Assembly (NCBI GenBank): GCA_946480685.1
Contig: CAMLLI010000199.1
Span: forward strand, 1-7,306
Source of the DNA: an uncultured Flammeovirgaceae bacterium
Lineage (GTDB): Bacteria; Bacteroidota; Bacteroidia; Cytophagales; Cyclobacteriaceae
DNA length: 7,306 bases
Direction: 5' to 3'
Under the pieces are notes generated by a model. That model searched no databases and was not told the origin of the DNA. It saw only the letters and a program-made list of their open reading frames with translations. Positions 3,774-7,306 of the stretch are shown here, in pieces (position 1 is the stretch's first letter; each line of letters begins with the position of its first letter). The position numbers were made by a program, and so were the translations under genes.

Positions 3774-5537
3774 TTATTTTTTCAATACTGTAAACTCAAC
3801 GCGTCTGTTGTTGGCACGGCCGGCATCGGTATCATTTGTGTCGATCGGTTTGCTTTCGCCATAACCGTGCGCGGTGAGGCGGTAACTTTCTATACCCTGG
3901 CTGATGAGATAATCAACCACAGCCTGCGAACGACCTTGTGAGAGATTGGCGTTATAGTCATCCGAACCTTTGTTATCGGTGTGACCGGCAATTTCAATTT
4001 CAACAGTACTGTTCTGTTTCAGGAAGTCAACCACTTTGTTAAGTTCTGTAAATGACTCTTTCTTCAATGTAGTCTTGTCGAAATCGAAGTATATATTTTT
4101 AAGACGTACCGTTACACCAATCTCGATCGGTAACAGGTATAGATCGCGAATGGCCGGTGAGAGTTCTTCACTTTCCAGTTGAACGCTGTCTGTAGTGTTA
4201 AGATATCCTTCAGCAGATGCGGTTATCATATACCAGCCGAGCTTCGGTACTTCTTTTTCATAGCTTCCGCGTGCTGCATCTACTTTGAAGTTGGTTTTGC
4301 GATCGTTGCGTAGTGTTATATCCAGTTTCGCAGCAATTTGCTTGTCGGTTTTCTTATCGTATACATTACCGCTAACCAGTAATTTCTTCGCTACCGGTTT
4401 CAACAGCATCTCGATATATATTGTAGTATCTTTTTTGAGTACTGGCAGTTTGAAGGATTGTTCTTTTGGTATAAAACCTTCGGTACGCGCAGCAACAGTA
4501 AATGCCTGCATCTCGGGAGCCTTCGTGTCAAATTTACCTTGTGCGTTTGAGCGCAGTGCAACCGGCTCGCGATCGGTAACTTTTATCTCAACGTTTGCCT
4601 GCAGCGGCTCTTGTGTTTTTTCATTCAACACGATACCGGTCAATTGTACTTTGAAAGTTTTTGGCACCAGTTGGTATAGATCAAGTTGTGCACCGTCCAT
4701 CGCCTTGTTCGCACGACTCGTAAATACATTACCTGCATTGTCAATTGTGAAGTAATAGTCGAGTGCACTCGTGTTGATGGGCTTGCCCATGTTAATCGGT
4801 TCTGACCAGTTCATCCAGGTATCATCGAGGCGTGTGGTTCTATATATATCTACACCACCTTGTCTGCCGGGTGATTGTCTCGCGCTCGCGAAGTATAACG
4901 TTTTTTGATCCGGTCCTATAAAGGGTCCTACATCATCCAGCGTTGTGCTCAGTTTTAATTTTTCAGGTTTAGACCAGGAGCCATTCGGCAGAACGTGACT
5001 TGCGTACAAGTCGCTGTTAGGACTATTTTCTTTTTCACTGAAGTAGATGATCATGTGCTTCATATCAGCCGACATACTGGCGCCATAGAAGCGACCTTTG
5101 TTCATCGACTTGAAATCTTTTACATCAAGTTCGCGCAGTGATGAACCGGTAACAATTGAAAATCCTTTTTCACCTTTTGTCTTTCCTCCCTTAATAAAAA
5201 GATTGCCATCCGGAAATACAGTGAACACCTGGTTGGACCGGTGAATGTTGAACGGATTGCGCAAGTGTTCGGCTTTACCCCAAACGCCATTCGCATCTTT
5301 CTTCGATACCCAGATGTCCTGAGTATCATCTTTACCTTGTGTGTTCTCCGGGTGATCCTGAACAAAGAAGTAAAGCGTGTTGCCATCCGGAGAAATTACA
5401 GGAGCAGCTTCGTGGTGAAACGTGTTTACATTCTTGTCCATTTTAACAAGCTCATAACGTTCCATCGGTTGTTGTGCCGGTTGACCGAATACGCAAAAAG
5501 TGAGCAAAGTACAAACGAGTAAAAGTGGGATTTTCAT
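3774..5537 (-). CDS. OmpA-family outer-membrane/periplasmic protein with PD40 propeller and two carboxypeptidase-regulatory-like domains
   Basis: A 587-residue exported protein. A signal peptide (MKIPLLLVCTLLTFCVFG, 1-18) has no clear lipobox. Residues about 40-290 carry PD40/WD40-like propeller motifs (APVISPDGNTLYF at 45-57, TVFPDGNLF at 106-114, GPFIGPDQKTLYFAS at 204-218, DIYR at 230-233). Two beta-sandwich repeats of carboxypeptidase-regulatory type follow (about 296-380, GIVLNEKTQEPLQANVEI; about 386-470, GNVYDKKTDKQIAAKLDI). The C-terminal OmpA domain (480-585) has IYFDFDKTTL, GHTDNKGSDDYNANLSQGRS and NNRRVEFTV. Asp521 and Arg536, 15 residues apart, match the pair that binds the diaminopimelate of peptidoglycan in OmpA domains. 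The likely role is anchoring an envelope complex to the cell wall. The order resembles PorE of the type IX secretion system but lacks its TPR part, so that link is uncertain. It has its own transcription unit between terminators. Confidence 0.93.
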   Translation of the reverse strand: MKIPLLLVCTLLTFCVFGQPAQQPMERYELVKMDKNVNTFHHEAAPVISPDGNTLYFFVQDHPENTQGKDDTQDIWVSKKDANGVWGKAEHLRNPFNIHRSNQVFTVFPDGNLFIKGGKTKGEKGFSIVTGSSLRELDVKDFKSMNKGRFYGASMSADMKHMIIYFSEKENSPNSDLYASHVLPNGSWSKPEKLKLSTTLDDVGPFIGPDQKTLYFASARQSPGRQGGVDIYRTTRLDDTWMNWSEPINMGKPINTSALDYYFTIDNAGNVFTSRANKAMDGAQLDLYQLVPKTFKVQLTGIVLNEKTQEPLQANVEIKVTDREPVALRSNAQGKFDTKAPEMQAFTVAARTEGFIPKEQSFKLPVLKKDTTIYIEMLLKPVAKKLLVSGNVYDKKTDKQIAAKLDITLRNDRKTNFKVDAARGSYEKEVPKLGWYMITASAEGYLNTTDSVQLESEELSPAIRDLYLLPIEIGVTVRLKNIYFDFDKTTLKKESFTELNKVVDFLKQNSTVEIEIAGHTDNKGSDDYNANLSQGRSQAVVDYLISQGIESYRLTAHGYGESKPIDTNDTDAGRANNRRVEFTVLKK

Positions 5538-5679: not shown

Positions 5680-6123
5680 TTACATGCGCACACTGCCAAT
5701 GATTTTGAGACCACCCTGCAGTGCTACAGCAATGATGATAATCAATGCGATGGTGTTGAAAATAAATAAGCGTTTGTGTTTGGCAACCGGATCGCTCATG
5801 CGCTTCGAGGTTGAACGCACAATGGTGATCAACACCACGGCAATGAGCATACCGGTGATGTGCTCGACTGTCCAATAGCGTGTCACTTTATCACTCATGG
5901 TCTCGCCACCGAATTGAACAAACGGACTTTTAAAATATAGTGCTAATCCCGCAAGGAACTGAATGTGTGTAAAGATGAGCAGGAAAAGGCTCAGCATGTT
6001 GTCCGCTTTTTCGAAAGGCTTTTTGTTTAGCAGGCCGATCAATGATTTGATGATCACCACGATCAACAGTAACAATACGAGATAGCGAATGGATGAATGG
6101 GTATGTAATAATCCGGTATACAT
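5680..6123 (-). CDS. four-helix membrane protein, 'cytochrome b-like' hypothetical
   Basis: A 147-residue integral membrane protein with four predicted helices: about 12-31, 44-64, 87-102 and 118-138. Histidines are at 7 and 9 (LLHTHS, ahead of helix 1), 53 (FTHIQF, in helix 2), 88 (VEHITG, start of helix 3) and 116 (AKHKRL, before helix 4). Similar Bacteroidota proteins are commonly labelled cytochrome b or hypothetical; as I recall the family, the N-terminal LHxxxR-type start, the helix-2 His and the VEH of helix 3 are shared. Paired His in helices could bind haem, but this is inference and no classical cytochrome b motif proves it. It is transcribed divergently from the ion-channel gene and has its own terminator. 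Confidence 0.85.
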   Translation of the reverse strand: MYTGLLHTHSSIRYLVLLLLIVVIIKSLIGLLNKKPFEKADNMLSLFLLIFTHIQFLAGLALYFKSPFVQFGGETMSDKVTRYWTVEHITGMLIAVVLITIVRSTSKRMSDPVAKHKRLFIFNTIALIIIIAVALQGGLKIIGSVRM

Positions 6124-6236: not shown

Positions 6237-7184
6237 ATGCCGAAGTATTTTTTTACCCTGTGCCTGGCCCTGGTGCTGGCCACTGCGTATGCTCAACAAG
6301 AACGTGTACCCGACACTGTGAAGGTGGGCGCGTATGTAATCAGTGTACACGACATTAACTTCCACGATAAAGAATATACCATTCGCTTCTGGTTGTGGTT
6401 TGTATATGATAATGCTGATTTCGATTTTTCAAAACAACTCGATATTCCCAATGCAAAAGAAATAGAACCGCCCGATATCATTGTTGATAGCGTGGAAGGT
6501 AAGTCGTGGGCAATCATGAAAATGAAATGTACCATGAAAGAAAAATGGGATGTGCAGGATTTTCCGTTCGATCAGCAACACCTGAAAGTGCAGATCGAGA
6601 ATGCATTGTTTGATAACCGGAGTCTCGTGTTTGTGCCAGACTTGAAAGGCAGTCGCTTTGATGAGAAGGAAGCGATTGACGGCTGGACGATCCGAAATTT
6701 TCACGTATTGAGCAAGAGTAATGATTATGAGACAGGCTTTGGAGATTCTACAGTGACCGGACAAGTGTTCTCTACCTTTAACATCGAGATGGATATCGAA
6801 CGCAATGCATGGGGATTGTTTATGAAGATCTTCATCGGTATGTATATAGCGTTTCTCATTGCTATTGTGAGTTTTACACCACATCCTTCGGAGTTGGAGC
6901 CGCGGTTCGGATTACCGGTCGGTGGTTTGTTCGCGGCCGTTGGTAACAAGTATATTATTGATTCAGTGTTGCCCGAGTCCTCTACATTTACGCTGGTAGA
7001 TACACTGCATGCCTTTACCTTCTTTGCCATCTTTATGACGCTGGTGGTTTCTGCTATTGCACTGAAGTACCATGACAGTGGGCGTACAGACGCTGCGTTG
7101 CGTGTGAATAGAATTGGTTCAAGAATAGTAGTAGTGTCTTATATTTTAGCGAACTTGATAGCTGTTATATTAGCCTTACGTTAA
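6237..7184 (+). CDS. prokaryotic pentameric ligand-gated ion channel (Cys-loop receptor homologue)
   Basis: A 315-residue protein, about the length of GLIC and ELIC. Signal peptide 1-19 (ending TAYA before QQ) is followed by a beta-sandwich ligand-binding domain (about 25-190) containing the Pro-loop WDVQDFPFDQQ (104-114). The two loop cysteines of animal receptors are absent, as in other bacterial members. Four membrane helices follow: M1 about 192-214, M2 about 222-244, M3 about 252-277 and M4 about 292-313. The M4 stretch RIGSRIVVVSYILANLI resembles the SRI...LLAN part of GLIC. It should form a homopentamer in the inner membrane with the binding domain in the periplasm. The ligand is unknown. 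M2 contains E221, R223, G225, G229, F232 and G236, an unusual pore (see findings). A secreted-protein gene starts 13 bases after the stop, suggesting an operon. Confidence 0.92.
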   Translation: MPKYFFTLCLALVLATAYAQQERVPDTVKVGAYVISVHDINFHDKEYTIRFWLWFVYDNADFDFSKQLDIPNAKEIEPPDIIVDSVEGKSWAIMKMKCTMKEKWDVQDFPFDQQHLKVQIENALFDNRSLVFVPDLKGSRFDEKEAIDGWTIRNFHVLSKSNDYETGFGDSTVTGQVFSTFNIEMDIERNAWGLFMKIFIGMYIAFLIAIVSFTPHPSELEPRFGLPVGGLFAAVGNKYIIDSVLPESSTFTLVDTLHAFTFFAIFMTLVVSAIALKYHDSGRTDAALRVNRIGSRIVVVSYILANLIAVILALR

Positions 7185-7197
7185 AATAAAACACGCT

Positions 7198-7306
7198 ATG
7201 AAAAAATGTATCAACCTGAAAGTTGTATTCGCACTACTGGTATCTTTTGCTGCGGCTGATCTGCAGGCACAAACACTGTCGCTGAAATGGAAAGATCGGA
7301 AGAGCA
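7198..7306 (+). CDS. N-terminus of a secreted protein, truncated by the contig end
   Basis: The ATG at 7198 begins a clear signal peptide, MKKCINLKVVFALLVSF followed by AAADLQA, with probable cleavage before QTLSLKW. Only about 31 genuine codons remain: the frame continues to 7306, but bases from 7293 are adapter, so the final residues (DRKS) are artefactual. It lies 13 bases after the ion-channel stop on the same strand, so co-transcription is likely. The mature protein is not visible and cannot be assigned. Confidence 0.75.
   Translation, partial: MKKCINLKVVFALLVSFAAADLQAQTLSLKWKDRKS
7293..7306. other. Illumina TruSeq adapter remnant at the contig end
   Basis: AGATCGGAAGAGCA is identical to the first 14 bases of the TruSeq read-1 adapter and ends exactly at the window edge. 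A chance 14-base match at this exact place is very unlikely. These bases should not be read as genome sequence. Confidence 0.95.

Follow-up and report, generated by a model that had tools for sequence, protein, structure and literature searches.

Here, we identify P0001, the product of an open reading frame in a 7,306-nucleotide stretch of DNA from an uncultured Flammeovirgaceae bacterium (contig CAMLLI010000199.1; this whole stretch is referred to as the window), as a probable subunit of a bacterial pentameric ligand-gated ion channel (pLGIC) and M2, one of its four transmembrane helices, as the probable pore-lining helix. The explanation that best accounts for the findings overall, to which we assign a probability of about 0.7, is that M2 is the pore helix of a wide bacterial pLGIC family marked by a common M2 signature, and that the channel probably passes cations. 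Judged from sequence, this helix appears unusual in its glycines at 2', 6' and 13' and its invariant Phe at 9', as does the adjoining M1 helix in lacking the kink proline. We suggest that five subunits would form a pore, gated by a ring of five Phe residues at 9' that would open when the periplasmic domain senses a ligand or ion. Because glycine side chains are small, the lumen would be wide at 2', 6' and 13'. Cation selectivity would come from the acidic ring at -2', with the help of 19', and the Arg at 0', instead of selecting anions, would pack or anchor the beginning of M2, as it does in other pLGICs.

Several lines of evidence support P0001 as a pLGIC subunit. First, the AlphaFold2 (AF2) model (mean predicted local distance difference test score, pLDDT, 93.6) has the pLGIC fold, with a beta sandwich as extracellular domain (ECD) and four transmembrane helices, and this fold is supported by Foldseek and VIA matches. 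Identity to solved chains in structural alignments is only 13-18%. The best rows of the fold comparison (GluCl 24.6, GABA-A 24.4, GLIC 23.8 and glycine receptor (GlyR) 23.7) all lie within 1 and single out no nearest solved channel; the names sTeLIC and DeCLIC are absent among the 50 fold-match rows listed, which excludes nothing. Second, the translated reading frame, which includes SELEPRFGLPVGGLFAAVGNKYIIDSVLPESS, carries the Pro-loop motif [F/Y]PxD of the pLGIC/Pro-loop receptor superfamily, the Pro of which is absolutely conserved, as FPFD. The pair of cysteines that flanks this loop in animal Cys-loop receptors is absent, the only cysteines of P0001 being C9 and C98. Third, the pre-M1 Arg is present in 139/141 aligned rows, i.e., in 100/101 rows outside and 39/40 rows inside a Streptomyces branch described below (the remaining one inside is a gap), and the M2-M3 Pro (P246) in all 101 rows outside this branch, inside which Gly is found in 38/40. 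Superfamily-wide, these two residues are given as 94% and 88% conserved, respectively, in Table 1 of PMC4795631.

Residues 221-246 of P0001 read EPRFGLPVGGLFAAVGNKYIIDSVLP, and M2 is conserved at three depths of comparison. Among near relatives (the best 120 of 3346 hits, taken together with the query), all 121/121 rows agree at each position from -2' to 20'. In the nearest clade (n=75; the window plus Cyclobacteriaceae-type loci, with tandem copies counted apart), 18/23 M2 positions are invariant vs 26/164 in the ECD, while a mean of 3.5 synonymous codons is used for the main M2 residue. Because residues are invariant while synonymous codons vary, this conservation is far from chance, and M2 is under strong purifying selection. 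Finally, in 103 rows of 25-93% identity (query included), hand-picked for spread from 241 proteins plus loci, R0' and F9' are found in all 103, G2' in 102, G6' in 100, Asp or Glu at -2' in 96 and P-1' in 91; mean relative entropy is 2.97 over 0'-20' vs 1.95 over the whole protein. Position 19' is Asp or Glu in 65/101 rows outside the Streptomyces branch. Thus, the oddities of M2 are a trait of a wide bacterial pLGIC family, not of one protein, and the signature of this family reads [DE]-P-R-F-G-L-x-V-G-x-L-F-A. No description of this signature or of the Streptomyces branch was found in the titles, abstract openings and text passages searched, which does not prove that none exists. The prokaryotic ART-LGICs of Tasneem 2004 (PMC549065) belong to the same superfamily as P0001, and the available text of that paper, apart from its alignment figure, mentions neither; its authors had anticipated that prokaryotic members would include cation-selective as well as anion-selective channels.

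An earlier note on this DNA described M2 as mixing cation-type and anion-type signatures and held that selectivity cannot be read off simply. The second point agrees with the available text of Jaiteh 2016 (PMC4795631). As for the first, the cation side holds (E-2', D19'), while the anion side is weaker. R0' was rejected as a mark of anion channels because a basic residue at 0' is widespread among pLGICs (79% of those in PMC4795631). L3' is also present in GLIC and sTeLIC, and G6' in sTeLIC and DeCLIC. What remains GlyR-like is G2' and the length of the M1-M2 linker, which aligns without a gap to GlyR and is two residues longer than in GLIC, sTeLIC and DeCLIC. The E-P-R of P0001 fits neither the A-[R/K] motif at -1'/0' of anion-type receptors (GlyR, GABA-A) nor the G-E-[R/K] motif at -2'/-1'/0' of animal cation-type receptors, both as given in PMC4795631; its acid is placed like that of GLIC, at -2' and not at -1'. 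Across the 101 rows that lie outside the Streptomyces branch, positions 2', 6', 9', 13', 16', 19' and 20' never carry a basic residue. Since an acidic ring at -2' is found without a basic ring at pore-facing positions, a cation channel is indicated, and we favor the inference that the channel is probably cation-selective.

With the full-length family profile, the scores are 89.7 bits for 4x5t, a chimera of GLIC and the GlyR transmembrane domain (TMD), and 79.4 for the best GLIC chain; with the TMD-only profile, the scores are sTeLIC 42.4, DeCLIC 38.7-38.8, 4x5t 38.5, GluCl 37.3, GABA-A gamma2 about 37 and GLIC 31.6 bits, and since most of these gaps are only a few bits wide, little weight should be placed on them. 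That 4x5t scores above GLIC with both profiles is in favor of the likeness to GlyR proposed in the earlier note. The GlyR alpha1 TMD of 4x5t shares R0', G2', L3', LP, the M1-M2 linker length and the Asp starting M3 with P0001 but differs in P-2', A-1', T6', L9' and R19' and in belonging to a Cys-loop receptor. GLIC (3eam), the best single-sequence PDB match of P0001, shares E-2' and has E19'; by contrast, it has N0', T2', S6', I9' and A13', an M1 proline opposite G201 and a linker two residues shorter. PDB 6v4a and its near-twin 9ftg, which we take to be DeCLIC, resemble P0001 in G6', a small residue at 13' and an aromatic residue at 16' but have chains of 609-642 aa, G-2', Q0', E2', L9' and the shorter linker. 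The best TMD-profile match, PDB 6fl9, is sTeLIC, the structure of which has a wide-open pore (PMC8449418). sTeLIC shares R0', L3', G6', an aromatic 16' and LP and T..D after M2 with P0001 but has T-2', D2', L9', an M1 proline and likewise a linker two residues shorter.

An anion-selective or poorly selective channel, in which the GlyR-like linker length, P-1', R0' and G2' outweigh E-2', would fit the higher rank of the GlyR-TMD chimera in the family profiles, the ungapped linker, the proline adjoining the filter and the existence of relatives in the Streptomyces branch with an A-R motif and R16'. Nevertheless, we consider this alternative unlikely, given the acid at -2' in 96/103 rows, the lack, across 101 rows, of basic residues at those pore-facing positions that were counted and the report that A-1'E alone made GlyR cation-selective (cited in PMC8011927). 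E-1'A alone left the alpha7 nicotinic acetylcholine receptor cationic (cited in the same source), so that one residue of the filter need not settle selectivity by itself.

Several observations weigh against a cation-passing pore helix as proposed here. P0001 scores under the Pfam and NCBIfam cut-offs, with 21.4 bits vs 26 bits for PF02931 and 41.8 bits vs the curated 500 bits for LGIC_1 (NF033918). Conservation at the pore-facing positions does not significantly exceed that in the remainder of M2 (Mann-Whitney p = 0.11). The helical moment of conservation has p = 0.17 (0'-20'), 0.30 (0'-10') and 0.02 (10'-20'), and over 10'-20' it points to 265 degrees, 65 degrees away from the pore direction. 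K15' is present in 65/101 rows outside the Streptomyces branch, although by convention this position should not face the pore. sTeLIC and DeCLIC lack an acid at -2' and have one at 2' instead. Finally, we know of no family member with a measured current.

The constraint thus acts on the whole M2 helix, with the pore face not clearly singled out by conservation. This pattern would also be expected if M2 were frozen for structural reasons, through glycine-mediated tight helix packing or in a non-conducting sensor, and P0001 formed a receptor-like pentamer with little or no conduction. In the near clade, conservation extends to every face of M2, N14' and K15' included; the spacing G2'xxxG6', together with G7', fits such packing; and the M1 14' proline is missing in 101/101 rows outside the Streptomyces branch (Gly 70, Thr 24), as opposed to its presence in 39/40 inside. 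This proline is tied to gating in nicotinic receptors; with Pro in 77% and Gly in 5% of pLGICs, it is a common but not a defining feature (PMC4795631). We regard a helix frozen in this way as quite unlikely, because the Pro-loop, the pre-M1 Arg and the M2-M3 Pro are retained, as are the acidic filter and the aromatic 9' across large divergence.

The residues named in the earlier note, among them E221 at -2', R223 at 0', F232 at 9', D242 at 19' and the glycines, were assigned correctly. Its span of 6900-6972 starts with P222 (-1') and ends on the first base of P246, so that E221 (6897-6899) lies just before its start, and its list of glycines omits G230 at 7'. The HMMER (phmmer) alignment to GLIC is ungapped in M2 from -2' through LP, and M2 is equally ungapped in the HMMER alignments to the GlyR TMD, sTeLIC and DeCLIC. 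We also slid a score matrix built from the 103-row alignment along the TMD of four solved channels. Over -3'..23', the claimed register ranks first in sTeLIC (86 offsets), DeCLIC (88), GlyR alpha1 (90) and GLIC (92). With two shorter spans without LP, it ranks first in 5/8 cases and second in 3/8 (GlyR twice, DeCLIC once), the better site being 34 or 66 residues off and never a near shift. The GlyR M2 fits the family matrix most poorly of the four solved M2s (2.2 vs 6.3-13.1). Thus, a profile alignment that moves the register, which the earlier note named as the result that would overturn its proposal, did not emerge from these sequence comparisons. An offset of at least one residue, which would leave these residues outside the pore lining, might be sought in the 13-18% identity of the structural alignments and the three second ranks, but the sliding-matrix ranking and the ungapped alignments make it highly improbable, and we reject it.

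Relatives on Azospirillum and Streptomyces plasmids were found by tblastn, and a search starting from the Streptomyces pair yielded 38 proteins, of which 27 carry the source name Streptomyces and one Actinacidiphila. With L076 (identical to P0245) and L075 (five residues from P0242), these make up the 40 rows of the Streptomyces branch; the counts include P0277 (named partial), P0264, P0272, P0274 and P0279 (short) and P0278 (deviant M2 end). R0', G2' and F9' are present in 40/40 rows, while an acid at -2' is found in none, Ala-1' in 36, Arg16' in 39 and Ala or Thr, not Gly, at 6'. This branch, itself unusual, thus has an anion-type pattern; D19' (16/40) and E20' (16/40) speak against a purely positive outer pore. 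The model of P0245 has a pLDDT of 86.1 and is poor over its first 44 residues; it places M2 at 245-274 and matches GLIC with E 3.7e-20. Two quick trees were built, both without P0279 (too short) and the loci L075 and L076. The first, in which the M2 columns were kept, carries the warning that L074 joins the Streptomyces rows on long branches; the second was made without the M2 columns and without L074. In both, 37 Streptomyces-branch rows form one group (SH-aLRT 100, branch length about 2) and three changes of the -2' label are required. In a small branch of P0228, P0231 and P0234, G-2' is combined with a shortened linker (AGPRFGL), the acid of the filter having been lost separately here.

A tentative reading, which we consider possible but somewhat doubtful, is that the family forms a natural bacterial selectivity-switch series on one M2 scaffold (R0', G2', F9'). 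Members with [DE]-P-R and no basic pore ring, found in Bacteroidota, Alphaproteobacteria and other phyla, would be cation channels that lack the M1 kink proline and have a lower pore lined by glycine. Members with mostly [AVG]-A-R and an Arg16' ring would be chloride channels of Streptomyces and relatives.

Table 1. Features of the channel gene and of P0001 in the window
Feature	Position	Strand	Basis or remark
pLGIC subunit gene, P0001	6237..7184	+	315 aa
Periplasmic (extracellular-type) ligand-binding beta domain, residues 25-188	6309..6800	+	nine predicted strands, fold matches, Pfam PF02931
Pro-loop FPFD, F109-D112	6561..6572	+	P and D in 141/141 rows
R189, pre-M1 arginine	6801..6803	+	alignment to GLIC and row counts
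M1 helix, 192-213	6810..6875	+	AlphaFold, alignments
G201, at the usual pLGIC site of the M1 14' kink proline	6837-6839	+	alignment
M2 pore helix (predicted), 220-244	6894..6968	+	AlphaFold helix; register by alignments
E221 (-2'), P222 (-1'), R223 (0'), charge filter region	6897..6905	+	alignments
G225 (2'), P227 (4'), G229 (6'), G230 (7'), F232 (9'), G236 (13')	6909..6944	+	
D242 (19'), outer acidic residue	6960..6962	+	
M3 helix, 253-280	6993..7076	+	AlphaFold
M4 helix, 284-314	7086..7178	+	AlphaFold

A match was found in 9/296 sampled Bacteroidota genomes, the positive centre included. The nearest relative with a named record (L001, 97%) lies in a metagenome-assembled genome labelled Chitinophaga, and the next-nearest are labelled Flammeovirgaceae, Ohtaekwangia, Pseudochryseolinea and Cyclobacteriaceae, so that the host probably belongs to this group. 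Source-given names of relatives include Ohtaekwangia, Chryseolinea, Flavobacterium, Ignavibacteria, WOR-3, Luteolibacter, Azospirillum, Roseomonas and Streptomyces.

Among the neighbor genes of 81 loci, none suggested a functional link to the channel. The two most recurrent ones are both in the window, on the strand opposite the channel gene: a membrane-type protein of 147 aa that matches no Pfam or NCBIfam family (5680-6123, -), a relative of which lies no more than 6 kb from the channel gene in 59/81 loci, and an OmpA/PD40 gene (3774-5537, -), which recurs in 50/81. Same-strand neighbors recur in up to 29/81. The window also encodes a low-complexity protein (1518-2537, -) that has a BON and an SWFGD domain and abounds in Ser, Arg, Tyr, Asn and Gly. 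No match was found in the phage collection, PHROGs, Rfam or the tRNA scan. The window ends in AGATCGGAAGAGCA (7293-7306), which we take to be the start of an Illumina adapter; similarity to L002 ends at 7293, and the contig end is probably adapter read-through. At L013, L019, L029 and L043, adjoining pLGIC paralogues have ECDs that are 57-65% identical and identical M2 helices, and they possibly form heteromeric channels. At L074 (Azospirillum sp. B510), a plasmid-borne relative adjoins an alanine racemase gene and lies near genes for ABC substrate-binding proteins; the available text of Tasneem 2004 (PMC549065) describes stand-alone PBP-II genes beside such channels.

The choice between cations and anions in pLGICs has mostly been learned by mutating animal receptors. 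If the selectivity-switch reading is true, the Streptomyces branch would contain bacterial anion-selective pLGICs. With a fixed gate and scaffold and branch-specific filter residues, the family would make the question of selectivity testable on natural homologues. Moreover, a channel with a mainly glycine lumen, Phe at 9' and no M1 proline would show which parts of the standard view of gating are indispensable.
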